NCBI GenBank assembly: GCA_002695025.1
Contig: NZNV01000006.1
Coordinates: forward strand, 1 to 64,000
Source of the DNA: Owenweeksia sp.
GTDB taxonomy: Bacteria; Bacteroidota; Bacteroidia; Flavobacteriales; Schleiferiaceae
Direction of reading: 5' to 3'
DNA: 64,000 nucleotides
Under the pieces are notes generated by a model that saw only the letters and a list, made by a program, of their open reading frames with translations, was not told the DNA's origin and made no database searches. Both the position numbers and the translations under genes were made by a program. Shown one piece after another: positions 43,481-61,808 of the stretch. Each line of letters begins with the position of its first letter. The stretch's first letter is position 1.

Positions 43481-43497
43481 AGTGTTGAAAGTACACT
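43481..43497. promoter_or_regulatory. Operator copy B of the shared palindrome
   Basis: AGTGTT-GAAAG-TACACT on the plus strand; on the minus strand AGTGTA-CTTTC-AACACT, one mismatch from the perfect palindrome. It lies 41 bp upstream of the MFS transporter start and just beyond the stop codon of mgsA, giving the transporter its own regulated promoter within the minus-strand gene cluster. Confidence 0.65.
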
Positions 43498-45243: not shown

Positions 45244-47585
45244 GGTTGTGTTTGTTTAAGGGTTACGTATTCAAAGCCCAGAGGAGGAAGTTCAAGAGGG
45301 ATAACCTGTGCGTTGAGGTTGGAGATCATACCTTCGTTAAAGTGTAATTGTACTTTGGTTTCGGGCTCAATGGCTAGCTGGATATTCTGCTTTTTTTCCG
45401 AAGTATTGAGCAGTATGACCACCTGCTCATCAAAATAGGTGCGCCTGATCTCCAAGAGGGATCCGTTAATAATTCGGGTTTCGGTGGTGCCGTAGATCAG
45501 CGGTAGCTGGCTGCCACGTAATTGATTGAGCTTTTTCACATTCTCCAGGAGAATGGTTTCATCCTCGTCCAGGCCACTGAATTGCATCATCCTGCGATTG
45601 TCGGGATCACCACCACCGGGCATGCCATATTCATCACCGTAATAGATGCAGGGAATACCCGGAACGGCATTGTTAAAGGCGTGTAAAAGGCCTAGTTTCC
45701 GGTAGGCCGAAGCTTCAGGCTTGTCAATGTTGCGATCCCAGCCGGCCATTTTCTGGTCCTCCTCAAAAAGGACATCCCCGGAGGCCAGGCTAATGAAGCG
45801 TGAACGGTCCTGGTTGCCGGTAATATTGCCCATCAGGTGATGGTAGCCATAGGTTTCCAGTCCCTGGTGCAGTTTGTCCTGCAAGCCTTCCAGGTCACCG
45901 TTTGAACTGGCAAATGCATTGACTGCGGCATCATAAAGGTTAAAATCAAACTGAGCATCCATCATACCGGTGCTGATGTAGCTGTTGATGAGTTGCGGGC
46001 TGCCGTAGGTCTCCCCGATTTGCAATACCGGGCGATCCGTGTGTTTACGCACGCGATAGGTGAGGGTACGCCAGTACAGTTCATCAATGTGTTTAGTGGC
46101 ATCATGACGGAAGCCGTCAAAATCATATTCGGTAACCCAGAACAAAGCACTGTCTGCCATGGGGTCCACTATTTCCCAACGTCTAAGGTCCAGCGTAGGA
46201 AGGTGATCGTCAAACCAGGTGGTAAGGCGGTACTCGTCCCATTTTTCGGTGTTCTTAGTGCCATCCGGCAGGTATAGTGAGGTGGCCCAATCCTGGTGTT
46301 TTTGATATATAGGGTGATTTATATGTATGTGATTGGCTACATAGTCCAAGATCACATTTTCATTACGTTGATGGGCATCGTTCAGAAGTGTGCGCAGCTC
46401 TGCGGATGTGCCAAAGCGATGATCTACGCGGATGTTACTGACCGGCCAATAGCCGTGGTATGCGGAAAACTTACTTTTGGTCTTGCCTTTGTCCCAGTAC
46501 CCCCAGGCATCTTCGGGGTTTTGGGTAATGGGAGACAGCCAGATGGTGTTCACATGGAGATCTTCAAAAAAGCCCTCTTCCGTTTTTTGGGTCACCCCAC
46601 TCAGGTCGCCACCGTAGTAGTTGGCTTTGGGATGAATTTCCGGGTCAGGGGTACGTTGGTCGTTTTCCGGATTACCGTTGAAGAAGCGATCCACCATCAG
46701 GAAGTACATGCGCGCCTGGTGCCAGTCCAGCCGTTCCAGCTGGTCCACATTGGTGATGGGCACACCATATTCCAACGGGATCAAAACATCGTTGGCCGCC
46801 TTTTCTCCACGGAAGGAGTATACCCGCAAATAGGAGCGTTTCACTTCTGCCGCTTTTTGGGGAATAGGCACCAGGTTTTGAGAAGTATTACTCTGGGCAC
46901 TTGCCAGTGGTAAGGGCTGGTTATTCCACAGAGCCAGTATTTTTTGATCAGCGGGGAGCGGGCTCAGTTTGATGCTTCCTTCATCAAAAGAAAGAGCATG
47001 GTAGATAGCCGGCTCCTCTTTTTGGGGGTATTTCACCTCCAAAACGTTGTTGAAGTCACCCATACCATTACTCACCTTTACAGGATTGTTGGGGTCTAAA
47101 AGTTCTTTGCCGTTCACATAGAACTTATACTCGTACTTGCCTGGGTTCAAACGGTAGGTACGTCTGTATTGGCCACCCTTTGCAACAAGGGGTGCGCTTC
47201 CACGATTCCAGTTGTTGAAGGCTCCGATCACTTTTACCTCACCATTAAACTCCCCTCCGGCCGGGACGCTGATCGTCACATCTTGTAGGGCAGGGTTGAT
47301 CAGGACCAGGCTCTCCATTCCCTTTGGGGTTTTGAGCCACAGAAACTCCATTTTTTCGGTCAGCTTACCCGTAAGGATGAGGGTATCCTTTTGTTGGGAG
47401 TGATTAGTAAGGCCAGTGGGTAATAAGTATGAATCCAAAGTTTGATCGGCCAGGTAGTCCCGAAGATAAATAGTAGTGGTATCACCATTAAGGTGAATGG
47501 GGGTATACAGCCCATGCAGCGCCACCTGTGCTTGTGCCATTAAGCTCTCCAGGGCGATCAGTGAGAAAAGGAACAGCTTTTTCAT
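45240..47585 (-). CDS. GH13 alpha-glucan hydrolase with N-terminal E-set domains (neopullulanase/SusA-like)
   Basis: 781 residues with a signal peptide (ALESLMAQAQ). Residues about 25-110 form a first beta domain and about 115-195 a CBM48-like E-set (EVKVIGAFNNWNRGSAPLV...YEYKFYVNG). The catalytic barrel starts ARMYFLMVDRFFNGNPENDQRTPDPEIHPKANYYGGDLSGV. Catalytic motifs: DGFRHDATKH (nucleophile), LQIGETYG (acid/base). The third motif reads ITGNQDRSRF, so the usual NHD histidine is Gln, as in some CBM48-containing GH13 groups. Expected to hydrolyse maltodextrins or pullulan in the periplasm. Overlaps in ATGA with genes on both sides. Confidence 0.88.
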   Translation of the reverse strand: MKKLFLFSLIALESLMAQAQVALHGLYTPIHLNGDTTTIYLRDYLADQTLDSYLLPTGLTNHSQQKDTLILTGKLTEKMEFLWLKTPKGMESLVLINPALQDVTISVPAGGEFNGEVKVIGAFNNWNRGSAPLVAKGGQYRRTYRLNPGKYEYKFYVNGKELLDPNNPVKVSNGMGDFNNVLEVKYPQKEEPAIYHALSFDEGSIKLSPLPADQKILALWNNQPLPLASAQSNTSQNLVPIPQKAAEVKRSYLRVYSFRGEKAANDVLIPLEYGVPITNVDQLERLDWHQARMYFLMVDRFFNGNPENDQRTPDPEIHPKANYYGGDLSGVTQKTEEGFFEDLHVNTIWLSPITQNPEDAWGYWDKGKTKSKFSAYHGYWPVSNIRVDHRFGTSAELRTLLNDAHQRNENVILDYVANHIHINHPIYQKHQDWATSLYLPDGTKNTEKWDEYRLTTWFDDHLPTLDLRRWEIVDPMADSALFWVTEYDFDGFRHDATKHIDELYWRTLTYRVRKHTDRPVLQIGETYGSPQLINSYISTGMMDAQFDFNLYDAAVNAFASSNGDLEGLQDKLHQGLETYGYHHLMGNITGNQDRSRFISLASGDVLFEEDQKMAGWDRNIDKPEASAYRKLGLLHAFNNAVPGIPCIYYGDEYGMPGGGDPDNRRMMQFSGLDEDETILLENVKKLNQLRGSQLPLIYGTTETRIINGSLLEIRRTYFDEQVVILLNTSEKKQNIQLAIEPETKVQLHFNEGMISNLNAQVIPLELPPLGFEYVTLKQTQP

Positions 47586-49888
47586 GCGTAGGCGGATTGC
47601 GTATGGGCGTTAGCCTGTACGGGGTACTCTTTACCTTTTATCCAAACCGAAACATCTTCAGCAGAATGGTTATGCAATTCAAAGCTATCCGGACGGCAAT
47701 CCAGCTCTAAAGTGCTGTGCCTGAAGCGGATCTTGAAAGACAGGCTTTTCCAGCCTTCCGGCAGTTTGGGGTCAAAATGCAGATGGCCATCTCTTACGCG
47801 CATGCCACCAAAACCTTCTACTACGCTCAGCCAGGTGCCGGCCATACTGGTAATATGCAGGCCTTCGTGCACTTCTTTGTTGTAATCATCCAGGTCCAGG
47901 CGGCTGGTGCGCAGGTACAGTTCGTAAGCCTTGTCCATCTTATCCAGGTAAGCGGCTATAACCACGTGTACACAAGGCGAAAGTGAGCTTTCGTGTAAAG
48001 TGCGCGGCTCGTAAAAGTCAAAGTTGCGCTCAATGGTGGCGCGGTCAAAATCATCTTCAAAAAGGTAGATACCCTGCAAAACATCGGCCTGTTTAATAAA
48101 ACAGGAGCGCAGAATGCGGTCCCAGCTCCAGTGCTGGTTGATGGGACGCTCAGCAGGGTTCAGGTCAGCGGCTGTAAGCTGCTCCTTGTCCAGATAGTTT
48201 TCCTGTTGCAGGAAAATGCCCAGTTCCTTGTCTTCAGGCAGGAACATTTTGTTGATGATATCTTTCCACCGGGATACTTCTGTATGGCTGTTGAAGGCCG
48301 TTTTTTCGAGAATAACCTCCAGCCTGGCCGCATCATTCTTGCGAACCGTTTCAATACTCTCAAGGGTGTATTGTAAAGTCCAGCGGGCAATATAACTCGT
48401 ATACCAGTTGTTGTTTACGTTGTTCTCATACTCGTTGGGGCCTGTAACCCCCAGCATCACGTATTGCTCTTTGGCGGCACTCCAGTTTACCCTTTGTGCC
48501 CAAAAGCGGGCAATCCCGATGAGTACCTCCAGGCCATATTCGGCCAGGTAATTTTCATCACCGTAGTAGCGGGTGTAATTATAAATAGCAAAGGCAATGG
48601 CCCCGTTGCGGTGTATCTCCTCAAAGGTGATCTCCCATTCGTTATGGCATTCCTCCCCATTCATGGTCACCATCGGGTATAATGCGGCCCCGTTGGTAAA
48701 ACCTAGTTTACGGGCATTTTCAATGGCTTTTTCCAGGTGCCGGTAGCGGTATACCAAAAGGTTTTTGGCCACTTCCTGTCCGGCCGAAGCCATATAAAAG
48801 GGCAGGCAGTAAGCTTCCGTATCCCAATAGGTGGAGCCTCCGTATTTTTCACCGGTAAAGCCTTTGGGACCGATATTCAGGCGGGGGTCATCGCCCGTAT
48901 AGGTTTGAGTAAGCTGGAAGATATTGTAGCGAATAGCCTGTTGTGCTTTGGCATCGCCATCAATACGTATATCACTGTTTTGCCAGTACTTGGCCCAAAG
49001 ATTTTTTTGTTCGTTCAGCAGTCTTTGAAATCCGGCCTCACGGGCATCCTCAGCAAGCTGTTCAGCTGCCTGGCTAAGTTTGTCCTTAGCATGATTCAAG
49101 GAAGAAACTACTGCAGCGTATTTGTACAAATGATAAGTGCTTCCTTCCAGGCCATCGATCTCAAAGTGATTTTCCGCGTATTTATTGCGGGTGGAGGCGG
49201 CAGATTCCAGGGTAAGGAGGTTGTCTCCGGCATGAAGCTCATAGGCCATAGCTGCTGCTACCTGGAAATCGAGCTTTTTGGTTTTGGCGATCACCATCGC
49301 TGTTTGTTCTCCTGCCTCCTGGCTGATCCCTTCCCAGAATTTTTCATCGTAATTGCTGTCGTGGTTGACCACGTCAAAATCCAGGTAAGGGGTAAAGGAT
49401 AATTTACCACTGAAGTTTACCGGGGTTATTGAATAGCGGATAGCCCCGATCTCCTTGCGCTTCAGGCTCAGGAAACGTTGTGCTTCTATCTTTAGCTTCT
49501 TACCGGGTTGTATTTCGGCTATAAAACTGCGTAGCAGGTAGCCTTCTTTCATGTTCAACTCCCGGTAAAAATCGGTAACCGGAACGGTGTGGAGATCCAG
49601 GCTACGGCCCTCTGCTTCAATCTTGATGCCTATCCAGTTTACGGAGTTCAGCACCTTGGCAAAATACTCGGGGTAGCCGTTTTTCCACCAGCCTACACGG
49701 GTTTTGTCCGGGTAATAAATGCCGGCTACATAGCTTCCTTGAAGATGCTGGCCAGAATAGTCTTCCTCAAAATTGGCACGTTGGCCCATGTGGCCGTTGC
49801 CAAGGCTGAATAACGACTCGGAACCCTGGTGTTGTTTGGGATCCCAGCCTTCCTCTATAATTTTCCATTGATCGGTTAGCAGGGGCAT
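47582..49888 (-). CDS. GH65 glycoside phosphorylase (maltose phosphorylase type)
   Basis: 768 residues, normal for GH65. The N-terminal beta-sandwich starts DQWKIIEEGWDPKQHQGSESLFSLGNGHMGQRANFEE; the (alpha/alpha)6 barrel contains the catalytic Glu in GVTGPNEYENNVNNNWY. No signal peptide, so cytoplasmic. With phosphate it should split maltose to glucose and beta-glucose-1-phosphate. The adjacent beta-phosphoglucomutase would convert that product to glucose-6-phosphate, and the kinase next to it would handle free glucose, which together argue for maltose over trehalose or kojibiose as substrate. Middle gene of the operon. Confidence 0.92.
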   Translation of the reverse strand: MPLLTDQWKIIEEGWDPKQHQGSESLFSLGNGHMGQRANFEEDYSGQHLQGSYVAGIYYPDKTRVGWWKNGYPEYFAKVLNSVNWIGIKIEAEGRSLDLHTVPVTDFYRELNMKEGYLLRSFIAEIQPGKKLKIEAQRFLSLKRKEIGAIRYSITPVNFSGKLSFTPYLDFDVVNHDSNYDEKFWEGISQEAGEQTAMVIAKTKKLDFQVAAAMAYELHAGDNLLTLESAASTRNKYAENHFEIDGLEGSTYHLYKYAAVVSSLNHAKDKLSQAAEQLAEDAREAGFQRLLNEQKNLWAKYWQNSDIRIDGDAKAQQAIRYNIFQLTQTYTGDDPRLNIGPKGFTGEKYGGSTYWDTEAYCLPFYMASAGQEVAKNLLVYRYRHLEKAIENARKLGFTNGAALYPMVTMNGEECHNEWEITFEEIHRNGAIAFAIYNYTRYYGDENYLAEYGLEVLIGIARFWAQRVNWSAAKEQYVMLGVTGPNEYENNVNNNWYTSYIARWTLQYTLESIETVRKNDAARLEVILEKTAFNSHTEVSRWKDIINKMFLPEDKELGIFLQQENYLDKEQLTAADLNPAERPINQHWSWDRILRSCFIKQADVLQGIYLFEDDFDRATIERNFDFYEPRTLHESSLSPCVHVVIAAYLDKMDKAYELYLRTSRLDLDDYNKEVHEGLHITSMAGTWLSVVEGFGGMRVRDGHLHFDPKLPEGWKSLSFKIRFRHSTLELDCRPDSFELHNHSAEDVSVWIKGKEYPVQANAHTQSAYA

Positions 49889-49893
49889 AGTTC

Positions 49894-50553
49894 TTAAGGG
49901 TTTAGTTGGTTAATAAGCTGGGCAGGACTGGTATCCTGAAAGCCCGGCAGCACTATATCAGCACCTTTAAGGTTTTCTTCTTCACCAATGCCCACGCTGT
50001 GAAAGCCTCCGGCTACTGCTGCTTCGATACCTGCCTGGGCATCTTCAAAAACCACCAGTTGACCTGGGTCTTCACCCAGTTCTTCGGCAGCCATCAAAAA
50101 AACCTGGGGGTCGGGTTTGGAGCGGCTGGTCTTATTTCCGTCAATGATGGCGTGAAAATAATGTTCCAGCTGTACTTTTTGGAGTATAGCCCGTGCGTTA
50201 CGGCTGGCAGAGCCTAAGGCAATCTTCAAGCCTGAATTCCTGGCATTTTCCAGGAAACCGGCTACGCCTGGCAGTACTTCATCGGAGTCCATATTATTGA
50301 TGAGCTCCAGGTACCAGTCGTTCTTTTGGCGCATCCAAAGTTCCATTTCGGCATCCGAAGCGGTCTGGTTTCCCCATTCCAGAATTTTCTGAAGGGATTC
50401 CTTGCGGCTTATACCTTTAAGCTGCTCGTTCTCCTTTTCGGTAAAGTGAATTCCTAATTGTTTGGCCAGCCTTTGCCAGGCCTGAAAATGATATCGTGCT
50501 GTGTCTACTAAAACCCCGTCAAGATCAAAAATGAACCCCTGGATAGTAGCCAC
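49894..50553 (-). CDS. pgmB: Beta-phosphoglucomutase
   Basis: 219 residues from a GTG directly after the stop of the kinase gene. HAD-superfamily motif I DLDGVLVDTARYHFQAW has the nucleophile Asp and the DxVxT-type pattern of beta-PGM; motif II LGSASRN; motif III with Lys in KTSRSKPDPQVF; motif IV VFEDAQAGIEAA. The cap carries KGISRKESLQ. It converts beta-glucose-1-phosphate to glucose-6-phosphate, matching the GH65 phosphorylase encoded five bases downstream. Confidence 0.93.
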   Translation of the reverse strand: MATIQGFIFDLDGVLVDTARYHFQAWQRLAKQLGIHFTEKENEQLKGISRKESLQKILEWGNQTASDAEMELWMRQKNDWYLELINNMDSDEVLPGVAGFLENARNSGLKIALGSASRNARAILQKVQLEHYFHAIIDGNKTSRSKPDPQVFLMAAEELGEDPGQLVVFEDAQAGIEAAVAGGFHSVGIGEEENLKGADIVLPGFQDTSPAQLINQLNP

Positions 50554-51432
50554 TTAACTGCTTTTTAAGGTTTTAACGGAAGGAAGTACATGTTCCCGGT
50601 GATATTTGATCAGGCCTTCCAAGGGCTTCTGAATGATATTCCCCGCTTCCAGATCAAAATAGAGCAATACATCCTTAAGGATATCCTTAAAGTGGTATCC
50701 TACGGAACCCACAAAATGAATGGGTACTTCACGGGCTTGTGGAAAACCCAGAACGTGGAATTCTACAAAATCACGGAAACTGCTGAATACGGCCTCCCAG
50801 CAAAATGGGTTGTCAATGTGCGTATTGGCAAAGGGTGCAAAACCAGCCAGGTATACGTTGGCGTGGTCATTCTGATACACCTTTTTCACCACATAATCCT
50901 TATCAAGGTTGTACTTCTCCGCAAACTTTACCCGGAGCTTGGCGGGCATAGTGCGGTAGAAGTAGGAGGTGATGAGCTTTTTACCAATGTGGCTGGCGGA
51001 GCCTTCGTCTCCCAGGATAAAACCAAGCCCTGAATCCAGGGTTTCAATATCCTTACCGTCAAAATAAACACTGTTAGAGCCGGTGCCCAGTATGCAGCTG
51101 ATGGCAGGCTGCCCGGTGTAGGTGGAATAAGCACAAGCCTTCAGGTCATGGTCAACCAAAATTTTAGCGTTGGGAAATACCATAGCCAGGCCTTTGCTTA
51201 CCACCGCACAAAGTTTGTCTGAAGAGCAACCTGATCCGTAAAAATATACCTGGGTGATGCTTTTACCGTATTTCTGAATGGTGTCTACCTTAGCCATTTC
51301 CTTGCCGATAGACTCCGAAGTGTGAAAATATGGGTTAAAGCCGATAGTATTCACTCTACAAACCTCGCTACCGTCAGGGTTTAGTATTACCGCATCCGTT
51401 TTGGTAGAGCCACTTTCCGCTAGATAAATCAT
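50554..51432 (-). CDS. BadF/N-acetylglucosamine-kinase-family sugar kinase
   Basis: 292 residues of the ASKHA fold. Phosphate 1 motif YLAESGSTKTDAVI at the N-terminus; phosphate 2 / adenosine region CILGTGSNSVYFDG and GLGFILGDEGSASHIGKKL, which is typical of BadF/GlcNAc-kinase-like proteins. In this operon the most sensible role is phosphorylation of glucose released by the phosphorylase and hydrolases, but GlcNAc or another sugar is not excluded. It is the first gene of the operon; operator copy C and a perfect -7 element (coding strand TATATTTG, 51467-51474) lie directly upstream. Confidence 0.85.
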   Translation of the reverse strand: MIYLAESGSTKTDAVILNPDGSEVCRVNTIGFNPYFHTSESIGKEMAKVDTIQKYGKSITQVYFYGSGCSSDKLCAVVSKGLAMVFPNAKILVDHDLKACAYSTYTGQPAISCILGTGSNSVYFDGKDIETLDSGLGFILGDEGSASHIGKKLITSYFYRTMPAKLRVKFAEKYNLDKDYVVKKVYQNDHANVYLAGFAPFANTHIDNPFCWEAVFSSFRDFVEFHVLGFPQAREVPIHFVGSVGYHFKDILKDVLLYFDLEAGNIIQKPLEGLIKYHREHVLPSVKTLKSS

Positions 51433-51466: not shown

Positions 51467-51496
51467 CAAATATAGTTCAAGTGTACTTTTTATAAT
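51467..51496 (-). promoter_or_regulatory. Operator copy C and -7 element of the kinase-pgmB-GH65-GH13-GH13-mgsA operon
   Basis: AGTGTA-CTTTT-TATAAT at 51480-51496 has a perfect left half and a right half with two mismatches. Five bases away on the minus strand is a perfect TAnnTTTG element, TATATTTG (51474-51467), about 35 bp before the kinase ATG. The palindrome overlaps the last codons of gapA, so the intergenic gap is only 57 bp. Confidence 0.6.
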
Positions 51497-52479
51497 TGAG
51501 ACATTTTGATGGTAAGGTCTGCCAGGCGGGAAGAATATCCCATCTCATTATCATACCAGCCCACTACTTTAGCCATATTTCCATTGGTAGCGGTAAGTTC
51601 ACTATCAAAGATGCACGAAGCATGGTGCCCCATAATGTCAGCAGATACGATGGGTTCATCGGTATATTCCAGGATACCCTTCAGTGCATTTCCACTGGCT
51701 TCCTTCATGGCCTGATTGATCTCATCGGCACTCACTTCTTTTTCCAGTTCTACCGTAAGGTCGGTTACCGATCCGGTAGGTGTAGGCACGCGCATGGCAA
51801 AACCGTCCAGGCGGCCTTTCATTTCCGGTAAAACCAGTCCCACGGCTTTGGCAGCACCTGTGGTGGTGGGTATAATGCTCAAGGCAGCAGCCCGTGCTCT
51901 GCGAAGATCCTCATGGGGTGCATCCTGCAGGCGCTGATCGGCCGTATAGGCATGCGTAGTGGTCATATAGCCTTTTACGATACCGAATTTCTGGTGCAGC
52001 ACTTTTACCATAGGTGCCAGGCAGTTGGTGGTGCAGGAAGCATTGCTGATAAACTGGTCTTCAGCGGTAAGCTCTTCATCGTTTACTCCCAGTACAATAG
52101 TTTTAACATCACCTTTGGCCGGTGCGCTGAGAATAACCTTACGGGCACCGGCTGTGATGTGTTTACCCATTCCTTCACGGTCACGGAAAATACCGGTACA
52201 TTCCAGCACCATTTCCACGCCCATATCTTTCCAGGGCAGTTGGGCGGGGTCTTTCTGAGACAGGATCTTGATCTCCTTGCCGTTTACCACCAGGGCATTG
52301 TCACGGGTTTCTACCGAGTATGGGAACCTTCCGTGTACGGAATCATATTTTAAAAGATGAGCCAGGATGGCGGGGTCAGTAAGGTCATTGATGGCCACTA
52401 CTTCCACTTCTTTACGATCTATTAACTGACGGAAAGTGATCCTCCCAATACGGCCGAAGCCATTGATTGCAATACGCAT
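51490..52479 (-). CDS. gapA: Glyceraldehyde-3-phosphate dehydrogenase
   Basis: 329 residues from the ATG at 52479 (an upstream in-frame extension runs into pfkA and is rejected). Starts [19 protein letters not shown] (NAD-binding Rossmann motif); catalytic Cys in [33 protein letters not shown] and the ending [15 protein letters not shown] are standard GAPDH. Cytoplasmic glycolytic enzyme. It begins 13 bases after the stop of pfkA, so the two are cotranscribed from the operator-D promoter. Linkage of gapA to a maltodextrin locus is unusual. Confidence 0.96.
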
Positions 52480-52492
52480 AATTAAGTGTTTT

Positions 52493-53476
52493 TTAAATGG
52501 ATAATATTTTGCTGATGCGCAGTAGCTCGGTATTGAGTACTGCCTTGTTGTTGATAGCTTTTTGTAAAAAGGTATAGGTGATTTCGTTATTTTCCAGACC
52601 AACCATTACGTCCGATTTACCGTTGAGGAGTCCTTCTACCGCAGCCACACCCAGCTGGCTGGCCAGCACACGGTCATGGCAGGTAGGTGACCCGCCTCTT
52701 TGCAGGTGTCCCAGTATCGTTACTTTGGACTCCATGTCCGGGAACTTTTTACGGATCTCCTCCGCAATGGCGAAAGTGTCACCCAGCTTATTGCCTTCGG
52801 CCACCACCACCAGCTTGTTGGTTTTCTTGTTTTCCACCCCTTTTGCCAGCTCGTTAAGCAGGTCCTGCATGGGGGAGCTTTCCTCCGGAAGGATAACATC
52901 CAGGGCACCTGATGCCAGTGCGGCCCTGAGGGCAATAAAACCAGAGTCCCGGCCCATCACTTCAATAAAAAATAGACGGTTGTGCGACTCGGCCGTATCG
53001 CGCAGCTTGTCCACGCAATTGATTACGGTGTTGGTGGCAGAATCAAAGCCAATGGTGTAATCGGTGCCGAAAAGATCGTTGTCAATAGTACCGGGAACCC
53101 CGATCACGGGAATGTCGTATTCTTCGGAAAAAATGTGCCCCCCGGTAAAGGTTCCGTTTCCTCCTATAAGCACCAGGGCGTCTATACCGTGCTTTTTAAG
53201 GTTTTCGTAGGCTGATTTTCGCCCTTCCTTGGTTTTAAAGGCCTCGCTTCTTGAAGATTTTAACACGGTTCCTCCCCGGTTGAGTATGTTTTTTACCGAA
53301 CGTGCGTTAAGTTCTTTTATATTGTCAGCGATAAGGCCCTCGTAGCCTTCATAGATTCCGAAAACCCTTCTCTCATAAAAAGTGGCGGCACGTACTACCG
53401 CCCTTATGGCGGCATTCATCCCGGGAGCATCGCCACCTGAGGTGAGAACCCCAATTGTTTTGATGGATTTGGTCAT
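52493..53476 (-). CDS. pfkA: ATP-dependent 6-phosphofructokinase
   Basis: 327 residues from the ATG at 53476, which begins [26 protein letters not shown]; a longer reading (to 53500) would run into the promoter. Motifs: GGDAPGMN phosphate loop, [32 protein letters not shown] with the catalytic [20 protein letters not shown], and [10 protein letters not shown] at the position before TFTGG (GNGTF rather than GDGSF/GDDTL) is seen in many bacterial ATP-PFKs. It phosphorylates fructose-6-phosphate. It is head-to-head with the NUDIX regulator gene. Confidence 0.95.
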
Positions 53477-53497: not shown

Positions 53498-53521
53498 CAA
53501 ACTTAGTGTAAAAAATACACT
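53498..53521. promoter_or_regulatory. Operator copy D (perfect palindrome) abutting the pfkA -7 element
   Basis: AGTGTA-AAAAA-TACACT at 53505-53521 is a perfect 6-5-6 palindrome. On the minus strand it runs into TAAGTTTG (53505-53498), a perfect TAnnTTTG -7 element, 21 bp before the pfkA ATG. Thus the palindrome covers the spacer between -7 and -33, a repressor-like position for pfkA. It is 93 bp upstream of the plus-strand regulator gene, so it may also serve autoregulation. A separate half-site AGTGTA is at 53587-53592, and a hairpin ACTCCC/GGGAGT is at 53544-53562. Confidence 0.75.
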
Positions 53522-53614: not shown

Positions 53615-54319
53615 ATGAAAAACCTTAATCCCAATGTTTCTGTAGACTGTGTTATTTTTGGATTTGATAACGAGAAGCTGAACGTTCTACTGATTGAACA
53701 AAAACTGGAAAGGGGAAAAAGCCAGTTGGCCCTGCCCGGAGATCTTATTTTAGATGACGAAGGCCTGGATGAAGCAGCTTCCCGCGTGCTTAAAGAACTC
53801 ACTCAGCTGGAAGGGATTTTCCTGAAGCAATTCAAAACCTTTGGCAATCCTGACCGGGTAAGCGATATCAAGGACCTGGAGTGGTTGCAATCCTACCGTG
53901 AACATCCACAGGCACGGGTTATTACCGTGGCTTATCTCTCCCTGGTGAAAATGGGCGATTTTGAACCCGCTGCTTCCAGCTTTGCGGAGCGCGTTTTTTG
54001 GTGTGACCTGAAGGAACTGCCCTGCCTTGCTTTTGATCATAACGATATCCTGGATGAAGCACTTTACAGGCTTAAAGAGGATTTTGAGAATAAAAAGACC
54101 GGCTTTGAGCTGTTGCCGGAGAAGTTTACCCTGAGCCATATCCAAAAGTTGTACGAGATTATTTTGGGTAAAAAGCTGGACAAGCGGAATTTCCGCAAAA
54201 AGATATTGAAGGAAAAGCTGGTTACCCCTACCAATGAAAAGCAACAGGGTGTGTTGCACAAGCCAGCCCGGCTCTACGAGGTGAACCCCGAAGAGTTGAT
54301 GGTTCAAAATGAAGCATAA
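53615..54319 (+). CDS. NUDIX-fold transcriptional regulator (NrtR/AraR-like)
   Basis: 234 residues. The N-terminal 150 residues are a NUDIX fold (VSVDCVIFGFDNEKLNVLLIEQKLERGKSQLALPGDLI). The NUDIX box reads GDLILDDEGLDEAASRVLKELTQL: against GX5EX7REUXEEXGU the Glu after Arg is Val and one of the paired Glu is Leu, so hydrolysis is probably lost. Residues about 165-234 (FTLSHIQKLYEIILGKKLDKRNFRKKILKEKLVTPTN... KPARLYEVN) match the C-terminal winged-helix of NrtR/AraR-type regulators. Known relatives sense ADP-ribose (NrtR) or arabinose (Bacteroides AraR). Here the context is maltodextrin use, so a glycolytic or glucan-derived ligand is inferred. It is the only regulator in the locus, and it overlaps or abuts the downstream GH13 gene. 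Confidence 0.88.
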   Translation: MKNLNPNVSVDCVIFGFDNEKLNVLLIEQKLERGKSQLALPGDLILDDEGLDEAASRVLKELTQLEGIFLKQFKTFGNPDRVSDIKDLEWLQSYREHPQARVITVAYLSLVKMGDFEPAASSFAERVFWCDLKELPCLAFDHNDILDEALYRLKEDFENKKTGFELLPEKFTLSHIQKLYEIILGKKLDKRNFRKKILKEKLVTPTNEKQQGVLHKPARLYEVNPEELMVQNEA

Positions 54320-57158
54320 CATGAGAAAACTAGACCTATGCGCCCTGGCGCTGCTGTTCCTTTCCGGCTTTGCCACGATGCAGGCGCAGGTGAGCCTCAT
54401 CCCCACTTTTGTTACGCAGAATGATACGGTTGAGGTACTATTTGACGCTACCCAGGGTAATGCAGAATTGGTGGGTGTAAGCCAGGTGTATGCCCATACC
54501 GGGGTTATTACCAGTGCCAGCACAGGTCCAACCGATTGGAGATATGTACAGGGCAATTGGGGTACGGCAGATGCTAAAGTACAAATGACCAACCTGGGTA
54601 ATAACCAGCACAGCCTTAAATACCATATTAATACTTTTTACAGTGTTCCTGCCGGTGAAACCGTGCAGAGCCTGGCCTTTGTTTTTCGTAATCAGGATGG
54701 CTCCAAAGTGGGCCGTGCCAGTGGGGGAGGCGATATTTTTGTGCCGATCTATTCCGGGGGCTTACAGGCTATTTTCAGTTCACCCGCGGAATTCGGAGTA
54801 TATGATCTTAATGATACGCTGGAACTTCAGGTGCAGACTTCCACCAGTGGAACCATTACCCTTTTCCATGAAACCACCCAGCTTACCCAGGTGAGCGGGG
54901 TAAACTCGCTCAATTATGACCTTCCTTTGGTCAACTACGGGCAGGGACGTTTTGAGGTGATCCTTCAGGCTGTATTGAACGGTAATGTGATTTACGATAC
55001 CATCAGCTACCTGGCCCGTTCCGGTCCCAATATCGGGGTTGACCCGCATAATGGTGAAGAAGGTATAACCGTGCTCAATGATTCCACCGTTTACCTGAAG
55101 CTGAGAGCACCTTTTAAGAGTTTTATTTATGTAGTGGGCGATTTCAATGATTGGGAGGTAGACCCCCAATATGAGATGTTCAAAACCCCGGACAGTAAGT
55201 ATTTCTGGCTGGAGATCACCGGCCTGGATTCGCAAACGGAATATGGATTCCAATACCATATTGACCAGGAAGGCTTGCGTATAGGCGATCCGTATGCCGA
55301 GAAAGTCCTTGACCCCTGGAATGATCCGTATATACCCTCTTCGGTATACCCGAATCTGAAACCGTTCCCGGTTGATCGGACCAATTACCCGGTGAGTGTA
55401 TTCCAGATCGATGAGCCGGATTATACCTGGCAAACCGGTAGCTCGTACCAGCGACCCGAGCAGGAGGACCTGGTGGTCTACGAATTACTGATCCGTGATT
55501 TTGATGAGCGAAGAACGTATCAGTCGGTTATTGATCGGCTCCCGTACCTCACTTCATTAGGAGTTAATGCCATTGAGCTGATGCCCGTTATGGAGTTTGA
55601 AGGCAATGAAAGCTGGGGTTATAACCCTATGTTCTTTATGGCCCCGGATAAATATTACGGTACCAAGAATGACCTTAAGATGCTTATTGATAGCTGCCAC
55701 CAGCGCGGTATAGCGGTTATTATGGATATTGTACTCAACCATGCTTTTGGCCTTAACTCCATGGTGCGCATGTATTTTGATGCATCATCCGGGCAGCCAA
55801 CTGCTCAAAACCCCTGGTTTAACCAGGTTCCCAAACACGAGTTTAATGTAGGTTATGATTTTAACCACGAAAGTGAGGATACCAAATATTTCGCCAGGCG
55901 CGTGTTGCAGCATTGGGTTTCCGAATATAAAATAGATGGGTACCGTTTTGACCTTTCAAAGGGATTGACACAAAAAAACACCTTGGGTAATGTGGCGGCT
56001 ATGGCGCAATATGATCAAAGCAGGATCAACATCATCTCCCGTCTTAAGAATGATGTACATCAGATAGACCCCGGGGCTTATATAATCCTTGAGCATTTTG
56101 CCGATAACCCTGAGGAAGTGGAACTGGCTTCACGTGGCTTTATGCTTTGGGGCAATGAAAACCACCAGTATAATGAGGCCACCATGGGCTATAGTAGTAA
56201 CCTGAGTGGTGTATACCATGCCAACCGGAATTTTGCCTCCAAACATCTGGTAGGATATATGGAAAGCCATGATGAGGAACGGCTGATGTTCAAGAATAGT
56301 AATTACGGAAACGGCAGTGGAAGCTACTCAGTAAAGAACCTGGCCACAGGCCTTGACCGTGTAGGACTTGCGGCAGCTTTCTTTTTTACCGTTCCCGGTC
56401 CGAAGATGATCTGGCAATTCGGGGAAATGGGCTACGATTTTTCCATCAATTACTGTCCTGACGGAACCATAGACCCTGGCTGTCGTATTGCCAATAAGCC
56501 GGTGCATTGGGATTACCTGAACAACCCGGATAGAGCCGATTTGGTCAATGAATTCTCGGCTTTGATATGGCTGCGCAGGCAACACCCCAATGTGTTTGAG
56601 AACGGACAGCTTTCGGCCAACTGGAACTCCATGATCAAGCATCTGCTGCTGAGCAGTGGAGACAGCAGTGCCCTGATAGTTGGTAATTTTAATGTAACCC
56701 AGGCTTCTGTAAATGTAGCTGCAGCGGATGGAGTATGGTATGATTACTTTGGTGGGGACAGTATTGTGATCAGTGGTGGATCCCTGCAGGGAAGCTATGC
56801 CCCGGGCGAATATCATATCTATACCAACTTTAAGACCCTTAGTGGCCCCGCTACCGGCATAGGTAATGAGGAGTGGATCTATCAAAACGGACTAAGTGAA
56901 TTGTTCCCTAATCCAGCCTCTGGGCACATATACCTTAAAATATACTGTCAAGATCCTGTAAAAGACTTGAACATTGAACTGTACAACATTACGGGGCAGC
57001 AAGTGCGGAAGGTTGCACTGGGGGAAGCAGACCGGGGCTGGACCACTCTGGAAATAGGAGAAAAACTGGGAATTAGTGAGCTTGGTGAGGGTATATACTT
57101 ATACCATTTGCGCAACGGTAAAAATGCAGAAACCGGTAGAATACTAGTTCAACATTAA
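54309..57158 (+). CDS. Large secreted GH13 alpha-amylase with E-set domains and T9SS sorting domain
   Basis: 949 residues from 54309; an ATG at 54321, one base after the regulator's stop codon, is equally plausible and keeps the signal peptide (ending ATMQAQ). The first 250 residues form E-set/Ig-like domains, followed by a CBM48-like domain (FIYVVGDFNDWEVDPQYEM ... TEYGFQYHIDQEG). The GH13 barrel begins QEDLVVYELLIRDFDERRTYQSV. Catalytic motifs: DGYRFDLSKG (nucleophile), IILEHFADN (acid/base), YMESHDEERL (third Asp, with SHD in place of NHD). A type A sorting domain closes the protein (LSELFPNPASGHIYLKI ... GRILVQH). It is the surface or secreted amylase of the locus, playing the part of SusG. 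Cotranscribed with the NUDIX regulator. Confidence 0.9.
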   Translation: MKHNMRKLDLCALALLFLSGFATMQAQVSLIPTFVTQNDTVEVLFDATQGNAELVGVSQVYAHTGVITSASTGPTDWRYVQGNWGTADAKVQMTNLGNNQHSLKYHINTFYSVPAGETVQSLAFVFRNQDGSKVGRASGGGDIFVPIYSGGLQAIFSSPAEFGVYDLNDTLELQVQTSTSGTITLFHETTQLTQVSGVNSLNYDLPLVNYGQGRFEVILQAVLNGNVIYDTISYLARSGPNIGVDPHNGEEGITVLNDSTVYLKLRAPFKSFIYVVGDFNDWEVDPQYEMFKTPDSKYFWLEITGLDSQTEYGFQYHIDQEGLRIGDPYAEKVLDPWNDPYIPSSVYPNLKPFPVDRTNYPVSVFQIDEPDYTWQTGSSYQRPEQEDLVVYELLIRDFDERRTYQSVIDRLPYLTSLGVNAIELMPVMEFEGNESWGYNPMFFMAPDKYYGTKNDLKMLIDSCHQRGIAVIMDIVLNHAFGLNSMVRMYFDASSGQPTAQNPWFNQVPKHEFNVGYDFNHESEDTKYFARRVLQHWVSEYKIDGYRFDLSKGLTQKNTLGNVAAMAQYDQSRINIISRLKNDVHQIDPGAYIILEHFADNPEEVELASRGFMLWGNENHQYNEATMGYSSNLSGVYHANRNFASKHLVGYMESHDEERLMFKNSNYGNGSGSYSVKNLATGLDRVGLAAAFFFTVPGPKMIWQFGEMGYDFSINYCPDGTIDPGCRIANKPVHWDYLNNPDRADLVNEFSALIWLRRQHPNVFENGQLSANWNSMIKHLLLSSGDSSALIVGNFNVTQASVNVAAADGVWYDYFGGDSIVISGGSLQGSYAPGEYHIYTNFKTLSGPATGIGNEEWIYQNGLSELFPNPASGHIYLKIYCQDPVKDLNIELYNITGQQVRKVALGEADRGWTTLEIGEKLGISELGEGIYLYHLRNGKNAETGRILVQH

Positions 57159-57210: not shown

Positions 57211-57251
57211 AGTGTACTTTATACACTAACTAATATTTTTAGTTACATTTG
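57211..57251 (+). promoter_or_regulatory. Operator copy E (perfect palindrome) and promoter of the susCD operon
   Basis: AGTGTA-CTTTA-TACACT at 57211-57227 is a perfect 6-5-6 palindrome. A perfect TAnnTTTG element, TACATTTG, lies at 57244-57251, 26 bp before the susC ATG. The palindrome is centred near -36, where a -33 TTG would be; none is present. The site could therefore exclude polymerase or, if the regulator activates, replace the -33 contact. Confidence 0.75.
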
Positions 57252-57277: not shown

Positions 57278-60200
57278 ATGAAAAAAAGATTTACGCACTC
57301 CATCTTTTTGTTTCTACTATTGTTTTTAGGGTTTCATTTTTCCGGTATAGCGCAGACTGTAACCGGAAAGGTGGTTGATGACGCGGGACTCCCACTGCCC
57401 GGTGCTGCGGTTGCTGTAAAAGAGCAACTTGGTATTGGTGCCGTTGCGGATGTAGACGGGGCTTTTACTCTTACAGGTATAAAGCCGGGCTCTATAACTC
57501 TTGTCATATCCTTTATAGGTTTTGAAACACAGAATATCCCCCTTGAAGTGGTTGCGAATACCACTAAAAATCTGGATATTAAATTAAAGGAATCCTCCAG
57601 CAGCCTGGATGAAATTGTGGTTGTAGGATATGGTGTTCAACGAAAGAGAGAAAACACGGGTTCCATTGTTAAACTCAACGCCAAGGATGTAACCGATATG
57701 CCGGCTCCCAGTTTTGAGAATACCTTGCAGGGTAAGGCCCCTGGGGTACAGATCATTACCGGTAGTGGTTTGTCGGCATCGCCTTCCGTAGTTCGTATAC
57801 GGGGTATATCCTCTATCAGCGCGGCAGGAGATCCTTTGTACGTAGTGGATAATATTCCCATTACCCAGGATTATTTTATGAACGGTAATTCCGGGGGTAT
57901 GAACACCAACCCGCTGGCTACCATTAACCCCAATGATATTGAGTCCGTAGAAGTGCTGAAGGATGCATCTGCCACGGCTATATACGGTTCCAGGGGAGCT
58001 AATGGGGTAATATTGATCACCACCAAAAGAGGTAAAAAAGGAGGTCTGAGGTTTGGTTTCAATACTACTCAGGGTATTTCGCAACCTACCCGTTTGCCGG
58101 ATATGCTCACCGGTCCGGAATACCTGCAACTTTATGAAGAAGCGTGGGTGAATGACGGAAATGTGGGTACACCTACCTTCCCTTTTGCCAGCCTTACCTG
58201 GGAAGAGGCTCAACAAAACAATACCGACTGGATCAGCCAAACGGTGGGAACCGGTTATAAGCAGATGTACGATTTTAACGTACAAAAGGGGGCTGAAAAA
58301 TATAACTTCTACCTGGGTGGTTCGTATGACCGCAATGAAAGCTACCTTCTGGGTAACTCCTATGAAAGGCTTTCCGGGCGGGCCAATGCGGATTTCCGCT
58401 TCTCAAAAAAATTAAAACTGGGGGTGTCCACCAGTATTTCCCGGGGAGATAACAACCGGGTGGATGCGGCCTGGAGCGGGGGCTTAGGAGCGGCCATGTC
58501 TACCGCTTTACCCATTTACCCCATTTATTGGGATAAAGATGGTGTGAACGGTAACGGTGATAGTGTTAAGGCTGGTGATTATTGGTTGGAAGCCGGTATT
58601 GGTAACAACCCGGTGGCTTTCCGCGATAAAAAAGAATGGAGAGTGCGGGAGGTGCGTTCTATAAACTCATTGAACCTCCTCTATACCCCAATTCAAAATC
58701 TTACTTTCAATATCACAGGTTCCTATGACCTGATGTACCAGACGGAAGATGTTTTTCTGGAGCGTGAGCTCCACGGGATTGACTCACTGCCGGAATCAGG
58801 GATTGCTATACATATTCCCCGTGTTGTTCATAACTACAACACTTTTGCTACGGGTTCCTACGACTGGAAGATCAATGACAATCACAACCTTAACTCTATG
58901 TTGGGTATTGAGTTCCAGAAAAGTGCCAATTACCTGAGTGCCTTTAAAACCATAAATGAAAATGGTAATGTGGGATCAACGCCTATTATTGCGGATGTGT
59001 ACGCCCCCTACTATGAATTGAGCAATCCCCGTAAACCGGATACCACCTATACCGAGGAAAACAAAAGGTTTAATTTCCTGAGTTTCTTTGGGCGTTTAAA
59101 CTACAGTTACCAGAATAAATATTTTGTGCAGGGAACCTTACGTGCAGATGGCTCTTCAAAATTCGGGGTTAATAAGCGCTACGGCTTTTTTCCAGCAGTA
59201 GGTTTGGGCTGGATTATTACTGAGGAGGATTTTTTCAATACCAACCCGGTGGTTAATTACCTCAAATTAAAAACAAGTTTAGGCTACGTAGGTAATGCCG
59301 GCCTGCAACCCAACCAGTGGAGAAGTATCTATAATCTCAACGGTATCGGATATGGGCAACAACTCTCTTCCACACCCGTAGTGCTGGAAAATCCGAACCT
59401 GCAATGGGAGTCAGCTTTAAACTTTGACTTGGGTCTTGAATTCGGGTTATGGGAAGACCGCATCACCGGTGAAGTTACCTATTACCGCAAGCAATCATCC
59501 GATGTATTCCTACAGATTGGGGTTCCCAAATACGAAGGTTTTTCCAACTATTGGGATAACGTAGGCGAAATACTCAATACCGGGGTAGAATTTCAGGTAA
59601 CCACCCGTAACCTTACCGGGCGTTTGCAGTGGACCACTAATTTCAATATTGCGTATAACTACAACGAGATACAGAGCCTGGGTGGCTACAGTGCCGATGC
59701 CATTGCCGGAGGAACCAATGATACCCGTACGGTGATCGGTTACCCGGTAGGAACCAACTACCTGGTGCGCTTTTCACACGTAGATACCGAAACCGGAGCC
59801 CCGGTTTACCTGGACATCAACGGTAATGAAACTTTTACCTGGGATCCTGCCGATCGCGTTCCCGTAGGTAAGGTGCTCCCCGATGCTGTAGGAGGTATCA
59901 CCAACACCTTTAAATACACGCAATGGGAATTGAGCTTCCTTTTCGTGTACTCCATAGGAGGTAATATTTATGACTCGTCCTCTAAAAGGCAACTGGGCCG
60001 GGTGGATGAATGGAACAAAACCACGCACATCTATGACCGCTGGCAAAAGCCCGGAGATGTGGCCATGTACCCACGCTTAACGCTGGATGCCAATAACCTG
60101 GGTTCCACCACTCCCTGGATCAATACCACCCTCTTCCTGCATGATGCCTCCTATGCCCGGTTAAGGAACCTTACCTTGGCCTATAACTTTACATCTGACC

Positions 60201-60403
60201 TGGCCAAAAAGGTAGGAATGAAGTCGGTGCGGATAGCTTTTATAGGCACCAACCTGCTGACCTTTACCAAATACCCGGGTATTGATCCTGAAATTGCCCG
60301 CGATTTTGAAAATCCTACGGACCGTAACATGAGTCCTAACATTGCGTACCTCACTCCGCCCCAGGAGAAAACCTACAGTCTTTCACTTAACGTAAGCTTT
60401 TAA
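57278..60403 (+). CDS. susC: SusC-family TonB-dependent outer-membrane transporter
   Basis: 1041 residues with a signal peptide (SGIAQ). Residues about 25-110 form the carboxypeptidase-regulatory-like domain (TVTGKVVDDAGLPLPGAAVAVKEQ...GAFTLTGIKPGSITLVISFIGFETQ). The linker DEIVVVGYGVQRKRENTGSI leads into the plug (about 110-240; LQGKAPGVQIITGSG, VRIRGISSI, VLKDASATAIYGSRGANGVILITTKRG). The barrel ends KTYSLSLNVSF with a terminal Phe. It imports oligosaccharides, here presumably maltodextrins, across the outer membrane with SusD as lid. First gene of a four-gene operon with operator E upstream. Confidence 0.95.
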   Translation: MKKRFTHSIFLFLLLFLGFHFSGIAQTVTGKVVDDAGLPLPGAAVAVKEQLGIGAVADVDGAFTLTGIKPGSITLVISFIGFETQNIPLEVVANTTKNLDIKLKESSSSLDEIVVVGYGVQRKRENTGSIVKLNAKDVTDMPAPSFENTLQGKAPGVQIITGSGLSASPSVVRIRGISSISAAGDPLYVVDNIPITQDYFMNGNSGGMNTNPLATINPNDIESVEVLKDASATAIYGSRGANGVILITTKRGKKGGLRFGFNTTQGISQPTRLPDMLTGPEYLQLYEEAWVNDGNVGTPTFPFASLTWEEAQQNNTDWISQTVGTGYKQMYDFNVQKGAEKYNFYLGGSYDRNESYLLGNSYERLSGRANADFRFSKKLKLGVSTSISRGDNNRVDAAWSGGLGAAMSTALPIYPIYWDKDGVNGNGDSVKAGDYWLEAGIGNNPVAFRDKKEWRVREVRSINSLNLLYTPIQNLTFNITGSYDLMYQTEDVFLERELHGIDSLPESGIAIHIPRVVHNYNTFATGSYDWKINDNHNLNSMLGIEFQKSANYLSAFKTINENGNVGSTPIIADVYAPYYELSNPRKPDTTYTEENKRFNFLSFFGRLNYSYQNKYFVQGTLRADGSSKFGVNKRYGFFPAVGLGWIITEEDFFNTNPVVNYLKLKTSLGYVGNAGLQPNQWRSIYNLNGIGYGQQLSSTPVVLENPNLQWESALNFDLGLEFGLWEDRITGEVTYYRKQSSDVFLQIGVPKYEGFSNYWDNVGEILNTGVEFQVTTRNLTGRLQWTTNFNIAYNYNEIQSLGGYSADAIAGGTNDTRTVIGYPVGTNYLVRFSHVDTETGAPVYLDINGNETFTWDPADRVPVGKVLPDAVGGITNTFKYTQWELSFLFVYSIGGNIYDSSSKRQLGRVDEWNKTTHIYDRWQKPGDVAMYPRLTLDANNLGSTTPWINTTLFLHDASYARLRNLTLAYNFTSDLAKKVGMKSVRIAFIGTNLLTFTKYPGIDPEIARDFENPTDRNMSPNIAYLTPPQEKTYSLSLNVSF

Positions 60404-60407
60404 GACC

Positions 60408-61808
60408 ATGAACAGATTACTATATTTTCTCAGTTTGATCCTGGTGGTTTCCGTTTCTGTTTCATGTGAAAAGATCCTGGAATTTGAGCCGGAGGGTTCT
60501 AATATTGAAGAGGATGAAGCCCTGTCCACCAAGGCAGGAGTGGAGGCCTTGCTGAATAGTGGCTATGAGGCTTTAGCCGGCTATATGGGCGGAAGCTTCC
60601 AGGCCTTTGGAGACCTTATGGCCGATGACCTGGTAAAACCCGCCAGTAATAACGACCTGGATGAGGTGTATCGTCATAACGTATTGTTCTTTAACTCCAC
60701 GGTGGGCAATACTTATGCAGCACCTTATGCCTCTGTATTTCGCGCGAACCGTGTTTTAGACGTAGTGGACGGTTTCGACTTCAGTGAGATAGAATCCAAC
60801 CGTATTAAGGGGGAATGCCTGTTTCTTCGTGCTTTCGCACATTTTGAAGTGGTGAAGTTATTTGCGCATACCTATGGGTACAGCCCTAATAATGACCACC
60901 CGGGCATTGTGATCAAGTCAAGTACAGAGCGCCAATTACTTCCACGTAGCTCAGTGAATGAGGTTTATATGTTTATCATTCAGGATCTTAAGGATGCGGC
61001 AAACCTGCTGCCTCCTTCCAACGGTATTTACGCCACCAGTGATGCAGCAAAAGCCTTGCTGGCCAAAGTGTATTTTCAGATGGGAGATTACGCCAATGCC
61101 GCACAGGTAGCCGGTGAGGTGATCAATTCCGGTAGTTACAGCCTGGGCGCCAGTGTAGATCGTTACCTCAGCAATAATGTAGCTCCTGAAGTGATCTTCT
61201 GGCTGGATAGTTACCTGGATGTGAATGGAGGTACGGCCTTTTTTGCGTCAGGTAATTTTACCGGAAACTACCGTTACTCCCAAAGTAACCTCAACCCCGT
61301 TCTGAAACCTACCCGGGTGTTCTATGACGCTTATGCCGGTGATACCACCGACAAACGTCTTGACTTTTTTGAGATCATTAATGCCGGAGAACCCGATGAG
61401 ATTTTGGTATGCCGGAAGTTTGACCGCGATTATTTCAACGTACCCCTCTTGCATTTAACGGATCTGAAACTTTTGCGTGCCGAAGCCCTGGCAGAGCTTG
61501 GACAGGACCTGGCTACCGCTATTGATGATGTAAATGATATACGGGAAAGGGCATACGGGAGCCCAGGCAAAAACCTTGGAGCCGGTGTGTCAGCAGCAGC
61601 TATTATAGAGGCGGCCCGTTATGAACGCAGAATAGAGATGTTTGGTGAAGGAGATCGCTTTGATCAGCTGAAGCGCAGAGGCGCCCTGGAAAACGAAAAT
61701 ATCGAAGTGAGGGGTGATGTGTGGAATTGCAACGGAATGATCCTGCAATTTCCTATTTCAGAGAATACCGAGCTTTTTGAAATGAATCCCACCGGAGGAT
61801 GCAATTAA
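60408..61808 (+). CDS. susD: SusD-family glycan-binding lipoprotein (RagB/SusD)
   Basis: 466 residues with a lipoprotein signal (VSVSVSCEKI). SusD/RagB pattern: EPEGSNIEEDEALSTKAGVEALLNSGYEALAGY, then TPR-like helices with the conserved ECLFLRAFAHFEVVKLF and AKALLAKVYFQMGDYANAAQVAGEVI, and near the end AARYERRIEMFGEGDRFDQLKRRG. Surface-exposed lid of the SusC channel that captures the oligosaccharide. Four bases after susC; a short gap leads to the next gene. Confidence 0.95.
   Translation: MNRLLYFLSLILVVSVSVSCEKILEFEPEGSNIEEDEALSTKAGVEALLNSGYEALAGYMGGSFQAFGDLMADDLVKPASNNDLDEVYRHNVLFFNSTVGNTYAAPYASVFRANRVLDVVDGFDFSEIESNRIKGECLFLRAFAHFEVVKLFAHTYGYSPNNDHPGIVIKSSTERQLLPRSSVNEVYMFIIQDLKDAANLLPPSNGIYATSDAAKALLAKVYFQMGDYANAAQVAGEVINSGSYSLGASVDRYLSNNVAPEVIFWLDSYLDVNGGTAFFASGNFTGNYRYSQSNLNPVLKPTRVFYDAYAGDTTDKRLDFFEIINAGEPDEILVCRKFDRDYFNVPLLHLTDLKLLRAEALAELGQDLATAIDDVNDIRERAYGSPGKNLGAGVSAAAIIEAARYERRIEMFGEGDRFDQLKRRGALENENIEVRGDVWNCNGMILQFPISENTELFEMNPTGGCN

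Follow-up and report, generated by a model that had tools for sequence, protein, structure and literature searches.

What does a protein built on a NUDIX fold with a decayed catalytic signature sense, and which genes does it govern, when its own gene runs directly into that of a secreted amylase? This question is raised by a locus of Owenweeksia sp. lying within a stretch of 64,000 nucleotides (hereafter the window), for which a preliminary description had proposed a ligand sensor exerting private control over one amylase. The sensor and autoregulation parts of that proposal hold up, whereas the private role is too small, as the same candidate operator lies at five promoter regions of the locus. 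Because this operator recurs at those five promoters and, among relatives, before pfkA and, in some of them, before pckA and a second glyceraldehyde-3-phosphate dehydrogenase (GAPDH) gene, the protein is better seen as a central switch than as the regulator of a single amylase. We consider it likely that we are dealing with a sugar-responsive, one-component transcription factor from the NrtR family that switches glycolysis, gluconeogenesis and starch use in the manner of Cra or TrmBL1.

Fold, NUDIX box and ligand pocket of the regulator

The regulator gene (53615..54319, plus strand) starts with ATG and encodes 234 amino acids. Pfam models place a NUDIX domain at residues 7-144 (32 bits against a cut-off of 21.1) and an NrtR winged helix (NrtR_WHD) at residues 163-222 (92.7 bits against 27), which is the N-terminal and C-terminal arrangement characteristic of the NrtR family, and the AraR_C model also exceeds its own cut-off. 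When the protein sequence is searched against the PDB, AraR of B. thetaiotaomicron ranks first (E 8e-38) and NrtR of S. oneidensis (SoNrtR) second. An AlphaFold2 model computed from a 43-row alignment has a mean pLDDT of 90.4, and Foldseek likewise returns AraR as its best PDB match (E 2.3e-21) with SoNrtR next; superposition gives Z 22.5 and rmsd 2.1 over 199 residues for arabinose-bound AraR, and Z 19.2 for SoNrtR. The NUDIX plus winged-helix fold is thus kept, as had been expected from the first reading of the sequence. The same reading called this protein the only regulator of the locus, and no second DNA-binding domain was found among the locus proteins scanned, which represent a part of the open reading frames in the window. 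The genome as a whole yields ten NUDIX matches, and just two of those proteins carry the NrtR winged helix.

Read against the signature GX5EX7REUXEEXGU, the box of the regulator runs D43..E49..R57-V58-L59-K60-E61-L62-T63-Q64-L65. Two breaks had been recognized earlier, namely the loss of the Glu after Arg (V58) and of one paired Glu (L62), and both are correct. An alignment with an intact-box paralog reveals two further changes, Asp43 in place of the box Gly and Gln64 in place of the last Gly, for a total of four. Among 35 aligned orthologs, D43, V or I at position 58, and L or I at position 62 are each found in 35 of 35, such that the impaired box typical of NrtR proteins is a conserved feature of this group. 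Position 64 is variable (G in 17 of the 35), and we therefore dropped Q64 as evidence of box loss. By pairwise alignment the AraR box carries the same V and L, and AraR proteins have been described with two or three box Glu residues replaced (PMC4666351). Given this conserved loss, and given that AraR, a non-catalytic arabinose-sensing NUDIX protein, is nearest by both fold and sequence, the evidence argues for a sensor and not a hydrolase, as had been proposed, with hydrolysis predicted to be absent.

It is very improbable that the protein instead works as a NUDIX hydrolase, or that it is an NrtR which responds to ADP-ribose and controls NAD metabolism. Such a role would be in keeping with the NUDIX and NrtR_WHD matches and with the NCBIfam NtrR repressor model, which gives 112 bits, a score far under its cut-off of 400. 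Against it, all 35 orthologs have lost the box Gly, one paired Glu and the Glu that follows Arg, the same genome encodes another NrtR-type protein, on contig C24, whose box is intact, and the recurrent targets described below are sugar genes. A NAD-kinase-like label that had been given by eye to the gene before this paralog has no Pfam support and was discarded.

Alignment with the pocket residues named for AraR (PMC4666351) indicates that Arg86, Phe129, His131 and Val92 are retained as R81, F140, H142 and V102, with R81 and H142 invariant across the wider 43-row alignment. The arabinose-contact residues Arg86 and His131 are therefore both kept, whereas the third, Arg34, is replaced by Gln29 (Gln in 29 of 35 orthologs, R in 4 and K in 2), and Gly48 and Phe49 of AraR correspond to Asp43 and Leu44. 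The AraR mutant R34N is still bound to DNA in the presence of 0.5 mM arabinose (PMC4666351). Because the former set is kept while Arg34, Gly48 and Phe49 are changed, the ligand is probably a sugar other than L-arabinose. One may speculate that an invariant R95 and a conserved K86 in an insertion that follows R81 would suit a phosphate group. The insertion itself was rejected as a hallmark of the clade, since an equally placed one is found in homologs beside xylose-type genes; judged by eye, K86, R95 and P98 alone seem to be clade-specific positions.

A candidate operator shared by starch and glycolytic promoters

The genes around the regulator, assigned by Pfam unless stated otherwise, form a starch and glycolysis cluster. 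On the minus strand lie pfkA (6-phosphofructokinase, 52493..53476) and gapA (glyceraldehyde-3-phosphate dehydrogenase, 51490..52479, scanned from 52476 with its start taken from the open reading frame), then a BadF/BadG-type sugar kinase with a predicted glucokinase-like role (50554..51432; 30.1 bits, slightly below the cut-off of 31.5), a HAD-fold protein that would be a beta-phosphoglucomutase by context (49894..50553), a GH65 enzyme of the maltose phosphorylase type, again by context (47582..49888), two GH13 enzymes (45240..47585 and 43879..45243), a methylglyoxal-synthase-like protein with an MGS domain (43511..43879) and an MFS sugar transporter (42039..43439). Beyond these, a GH13 cyclomaltodextrinase-like enzyme on the plus strand (40222..42033) diverges from a T9SS-exported starch-binding protein with CBM20, CBM48 and X25 domains on the minus strand (38416..40098). 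Downstream of the regulator on the plus strand are the GH13 amylase, exported by way of a C-terminal Por_Secre_tail T9SS sorting domain (54309..57158, or from an ATG at 54321), a SusC-type TonB-dependent transporter identified by domain scan (57278..60403) and a SusD-like lipoprotein (60408..61808; a weak match, far below cut-off). Arabinose genes, which are the neighbours and targets of AraR-type proteins, are absent from this setting of pfkA, gapA, GH65, GH13 and SusC genes, and there are no xylose genes at the regulator locus. Genes similar to the methylglyoxal-synthase-like one inside this starch and glycolysis cluster recur in loci L208, L210, L213 and L214.

The amylase gene directly follows that of the regulator, as first described, with an 11-base overlap if it starts at ATG 54309 or a one-base gap if it starts at ATG 54321. 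Cotranscription of the two is likely because of this overlap or gap, and to that extent the earlier claim stands. A T9SS amylase adjoins the regulator in the window and in just three of 20 neighbourhoods from relatives (G213, G074 and G042; tblastn, 1e-12), however, and so we regard the pairing as a lineage detail. The regulator and pfkA-gapA lie side by side in divergent orientation in 13 of the 20 neighbourhoods, which equals 13 of the 16 whose orthologs have at least 50% identity, and in 11 of these 13 loci the kinase, pgmB, GH65 and GH13 genes come next. We also considered a regulator devoted to maltose alone; this idea was dropped because in G001 and G003 pfkA-gapA lies opposite the regulator, and of the starch locus little was found in the former and none in the latter.

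The candidate operator is the palindrome AGTGTA-N5-TACACT, which occurs six times in the window when up to two mismatches are allowed, versus an expectation of 1.56 from shuffled sequences, none of 100 of which reach six. Five of the six sites are in promoter regions and the sixth is inside the amylase gene. An exact copy, AGTGTAAAAAATACACT (53505..53521), is common to the divergent pfkA and regulator promoters and is conserved in relatives. The consensus of the -7 element in Bacteroidota is TAnnTTTG, and on the minus strand this copy ends with the base that opens the pfkA -7 element matching this consensus, TAAGTTTG (53498..53505, minus strand). Toward the regulator, 110 bp separate the start of the copy from the ATG, and a weak -7-like element follows 14 bp after its end, an arrangement that agrees with the autoregulation originally proposed. 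A second exact copy, AGTGTACTTTATACACT (57211..57227), precedes susC at 16 bp from TACATTTG. A weaker copy with two mismatches (51480..51496) lies before the sugar kinase-maltose phosphorylase operon, 5 bp from the -7 element TATATTTG, and the pattern search found copies with one mismatch before the MFS transporter gene (43481..43497) and between the divergent genes for the starch-binding protein and the GH13 enzyme (40133..40149).

Across the whole genome there are 17 sites at one mismatch, compared with 10 for the reversed pattern. Two of the 17 reside on contig C5 (L070, 8374 bp), which duplicates part of the starch locus at 66-72% identity to the window in aligned pieces and has a GC content of 39.6% versus 48.4%. 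Because these values indicate that C5 is probably foreign to the assembled genome, its sites were left uncounted as support. Exact sites also occur at C9:129374, where a T9SS metalloprotease-like gene is 58 bp away, and at C21:272289, 18 bp from a gene without a Pfam match; these may be chance occurrences or extra targets.

Several observations connect this palindrome to the regulator. The core of the DNA crystallized with AraR, GTGTTACTTTTACAC, reads GTGT-N7-ACAC (Table 2, PMC4666351), and AGTGTA-N5-TACACT has the same geometry. The AraR residues that contact bases, K179-R180-N181-K184, correspond to K190-R191-N192-K195 of the regulator and are found in all 35 orthologs. When 400 bp upstream of regulator orthologs were searched at up to two mismatches, a site was present at 25 of 30 loci from the genome search, our own included (20 exact, five with one mismatch), and at five of 14 loci from named records, where six of the nine misses are homologs of 33-38% identity and three are homologs of 54-55%. 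Within the family, exact sites occur in 47 of 64 genomes bearing the regulator (136 sites) and in none of 11 without it (Fisher 4e-6, a p-value that is too small because related genomes are not independent), which leaves 17 of the 64 without an exact site. This set of 64 excludes G223, whose match is only at paralog level, and includes G336 with a partial match. Ten regulator-bearing genomes contain 36 exact copies of the pattern, versus four of its reverse.

Exact sites also extend beyond the family, to 43 genomes of the order. For family f11 the tally is 12 of 24 among genomes that match the regulator at 1e-20 and six of 28 among those that do not, the latter including the 96% complete genome G112 with three exact sites. 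Either some regulators of this family have diverged or are missing from the drafts, or another factor uses the site. In families f3 and f6, 18 exact sites occur in 16 large genomes whose homologs reach only the 1e-30 to 1e-52 level or which have none, and these sites may be due to chance at that genome size.

The f11 genomes bring up the possibility that the operator belongs to another co-occurring factor throughout, for example the NrtR-type protein on C24 or an unseen factor of the LacI or Crp type. The C24 protein is from the same winged-helix family and has a similar recognition helix (DRRNFRK), and the 11 family genomes that lack the regulator also lack a C24-type protein at E 1e-20. Nevertheless, G213 and G074 match only the window-type protein at E 1e-20 and yet have exact sites, no site with up to one mismatch exists in the 14 kb around the C24 gene, and in relatives the site is located between the regulator and pfkA. 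With an operator geometry equal to that of AraR DNA, these findings make another factor improbable, and we favor the regulator itself as the protein that binds the palindrome.

Candidate target promoters and site geometry in relatives

We scanned 250 bp of promoter sequence in relatives for the operator at up to two mismatches, leaving our own genome uncounted. A site precedes pfkA in 22 of 22 genomes with the regulator and in none of five without; for pckA the numbers are 18 of 47 and 0 of 6, and for the second GAPDH gene, which by analogy may be gluconeogenic, 24 of 48 and 0 of 5. The reversed pattern, examined in the same regulator-bearing sets, scores 0, 1 and 1, respectively. Regulator-bearing genomes that lack the site (29 of 47 for pckA and 24 of 48 for the second GAPDH) include G213 and G387 of the same genus. 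These counts omit G015 and G248 for pckA, which have no upstream sequence, as well as the second pfkA copies of G238, G021 and G051, none of which has a site; genomes without a gene match are outside the denominators (two and three for pckA, two and five for the second GAPDH, and three for pfkA, of 30 each).

The position of the site relative to the -7 element differs among these targets. At pfkA it abuts the TAnnTTTG element in 15 of 22 genomes as scored by script, and by eye also in G238, where the start codon is possibly misassigned, and it lies 7-14 bp upstream of the element in four further genomes. At the promoter of the regulator itself (the window, G213, G387, G278 and G074), the site is 14-16 bp before a -7-like element. 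These positions, like that at susC, suit repression by occlusion. At pckA, by comparison, 12 of the 13 promoters with a recognizable box have the site 53-56 bp from the -7 element and the remaining one has it at 63 bp, and at the second GAPDH (20 promoters with a box) the distance is 43, 54, 65, 76-79 or 87 bp; our own genome has distances of 54 and 77 bp, respectively. The offsets at these two genes progress in steps of about 11 bp. A Rayleigh test with one median per genus (n=19) gave R 0.71 at a period of 10.5 and 0.82 at 11, with our own genome added and with five pckA and four second-GAPDH promoters lacking an exact -7 motif and the more distant second site of G003 set aside. Because genera share ancestry, and because the test was conceived and its period picked after the offsets had been seen, we take this phasing as a pointer to, and not proof of, activation from one face of the helix.

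A simpler reading is that the protein is an AraR-type catabolic repressor of starch and glycolytic genes only, and that the sites before pckA and the second GAPDH are weak or fortuitous. The sites at pfkA, susC, the kinase operon and the MFS gene are indeed positioned for repression, NrtR proteins of the NAD type are described as repressors, AraR leaves its DNA on binding arabinose (PMC4666351), and sites are lacking in 53 of 95 regulator-bearing pckA and second-GAPDH promoters combined. Despite these points, we judge this reading unlikely, because the other 42 of 95 promoters do carry a site versus none of 11 in genomes without the regulator, the offsets fall on one helix face across genera, and a site located 76 bp ahead of the -7 element is poorly placed for simple repression. 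Our preferred reading thus retains both repression and activation.

A further 16 sites outside the cluster were inspected in relatives. Six precede genes, each encountered a single time, that encode a phosphorylase, a CBM48 protein, a dehydrogenase E1 component, an aldehyde dehydrogenase, a glutamate dehydrogenase and another NrtR-winged-helix protein. Three others are at the start of genes for starch-binding CBM proteins like that of the window, with uncertain start codons in two cases. At four of the 16 (L190, L197, L199 and L201) no gene was judged by eye to be sugar-related. Three sites lie between a gene for quinolinate phosphoribosyltransferase, an enzyme of NAD metabolism, and a long open reading frame (one with a T9SS domain), and these exact sites in G059, G105 and G090 would speak for the NAD-controlling role considered above. 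In G059 and G105, however, the NAD gene has the site at its 3' end, and in G090 588 bp and another gene separate the site from the gene start. Among those looked at, no NAD-gene promoter contained a site. As a side observation, these operators (L191, L194 and L189) hint at a possible link either to NAD metabolism, a classic NrtR theme, or to the long open reading frame. Likewise, in G090 an exact operator is positioned one base before a gene (L188, 2313-2999, minus strand) for an NrtR-winged-helix protein without a NUDIX match, which raises the possibility of a regulator cascade.

A proposed switch and its place among known regulators

Fold, family, conserved box loss, operator conservation, the distribution of the operator and its linkage to the gene, and site positions are all computed features; to these we add, by inference, binding of the operator by the regulator, a hexose or hexose phosphate as its ligand, and a sign of regulation for each promoter. 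A ligand-free dimer would bind AGTGTA-N5-TACACT. At promoters whose core contains or adjoins the operator, namely those of pfkA-gapA, the regulator gene with the amylase, susC, the maltose-phosphorylase operon and the maltose transporter, the bound protein would block RNA polymerase. At pckA and the second GAPDH, where the operator sits about 43-87 bp ahead of the -7 element and on a single face of the helix, the protein would help to recruit polymerase. When sugar is present, a hexose or hexose phosphate is expected to fill the former NUDIX active site and to rotate the winged helices as in AraR, thereby freeing the DNA. Starch uptake and glycolysis would then be turned on, and gluconeogenesis would lose its activator.

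In its boldest form, this model makes the NUDIX fold a master switch between glycolysis and gluconeogenesis in a lineage of Flavobacteriales, with a hexose or its phosphate in a dead active site, and with operator position deciding whether the protein represses or serves as a helix-phased, class-I-like activator, a logic invented independently of Cra and TrmBL1. We lean toward this full version by only a narrow measure. Cra (FruR) of E. coli belongs to the LacI family and CggR of B. subtilis to the SorC family, and both are central-carbon regulators that respond to sugar metabolites. HexR of Proteobacteria, from the RpiR family, is another such regulator (PMC5343134), and none of these three families is built on NUDIX.

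A closer parallel in logic is provided by TrmBL1/Tgr of Thermococcales, whose operator TGM, TATCAC-N5-GTGATA, is likewise a palindrome with an N5 spacer (PMC4158304). The tgr gene adjoins a maltodextrin operon, and the protein, for which autoregulation has been proposed, responds to maltotriose or maltose, represses glycolytic genes from sites after the core promoter and activates gluconeogenic genes from sites upstream (PMC4158304). The pattern of site positions that we observe equals this logic, with the sign at each of our promoters being predicted, whereas TrmBL1/Tgr comes from an unrelated protein family and works with archaeal promoter machinery. If our model is true, position-dependent control of glycolytic and gluconeogenic genes has arisen on an unrelated fold, and Flavobacteriales gain a candidate central-carbon switch whose operator is defined, whose targets can be tested and whose ligand pocket is predicted. 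Such a switch would also offer a way to read the sugar regulons of uncultured marine Bacteroidota that degrade starch-like polymers.

Within the NrtR family, AraR (BT0354) is the nearest characterized protein, sharing with the regulator its NUDIX and winged-helix domains, the V and L of the degenerate box, the pocket residues Arg86, Phe129 and His131, the base contacts and the GTGT-N7-ACAC geometry (PMC4666351). The regulator differs from it in Gln29, Asp43 and Leu44, in the insertion after R81, in having glycolytic, gluconeogenic and starch targets as opposed to arabinose genes, and in its proposed activator role. XylR of B. thetaiotaomicron (BT0791) is another sugar-linked NrtR protein of Bacteroidota, one that has xylose genes as targets (PMC3878776, PMC4666351). 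Among the open-licence PMC papers searched, AraR and XylR are the only sugar-linked NrtR proteins that we found, and the published tree of Bacteroidetes NrtR proteins (Figure 1A, PMC4666351) may hold members of the clade described here.

In our own tree, the regulator clade is separate from AraR and from homologs beside xylose-type and mannitol genes, and the intact-box paralog branches with SoNrtR, a placement to be read with several weak forks and a long-branch warning in mind. Homologs beside genes for an FGGY kinase and a xylose-isomerase-like protein (L221 and L223), which carry an insertion at the same place, branch apart from the regulator in this tree. Homologs from Aquimarina branch with AraR, and in one such locus (L017, 7626-9814 and 9968-10651) an AraR-like NrtR-family gene adjoins galT-galK, which suggests a galactose-sensing member of the family. 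In two genomes of another family, NrtR-family homologs reside near genes for mannitol dehydrogenase or for PfkB kinase and isomerase-like proteins (L220, 9800-14159; L222, 9494-13950), an arrangement that suggests polyol- or hexose-sensing members.
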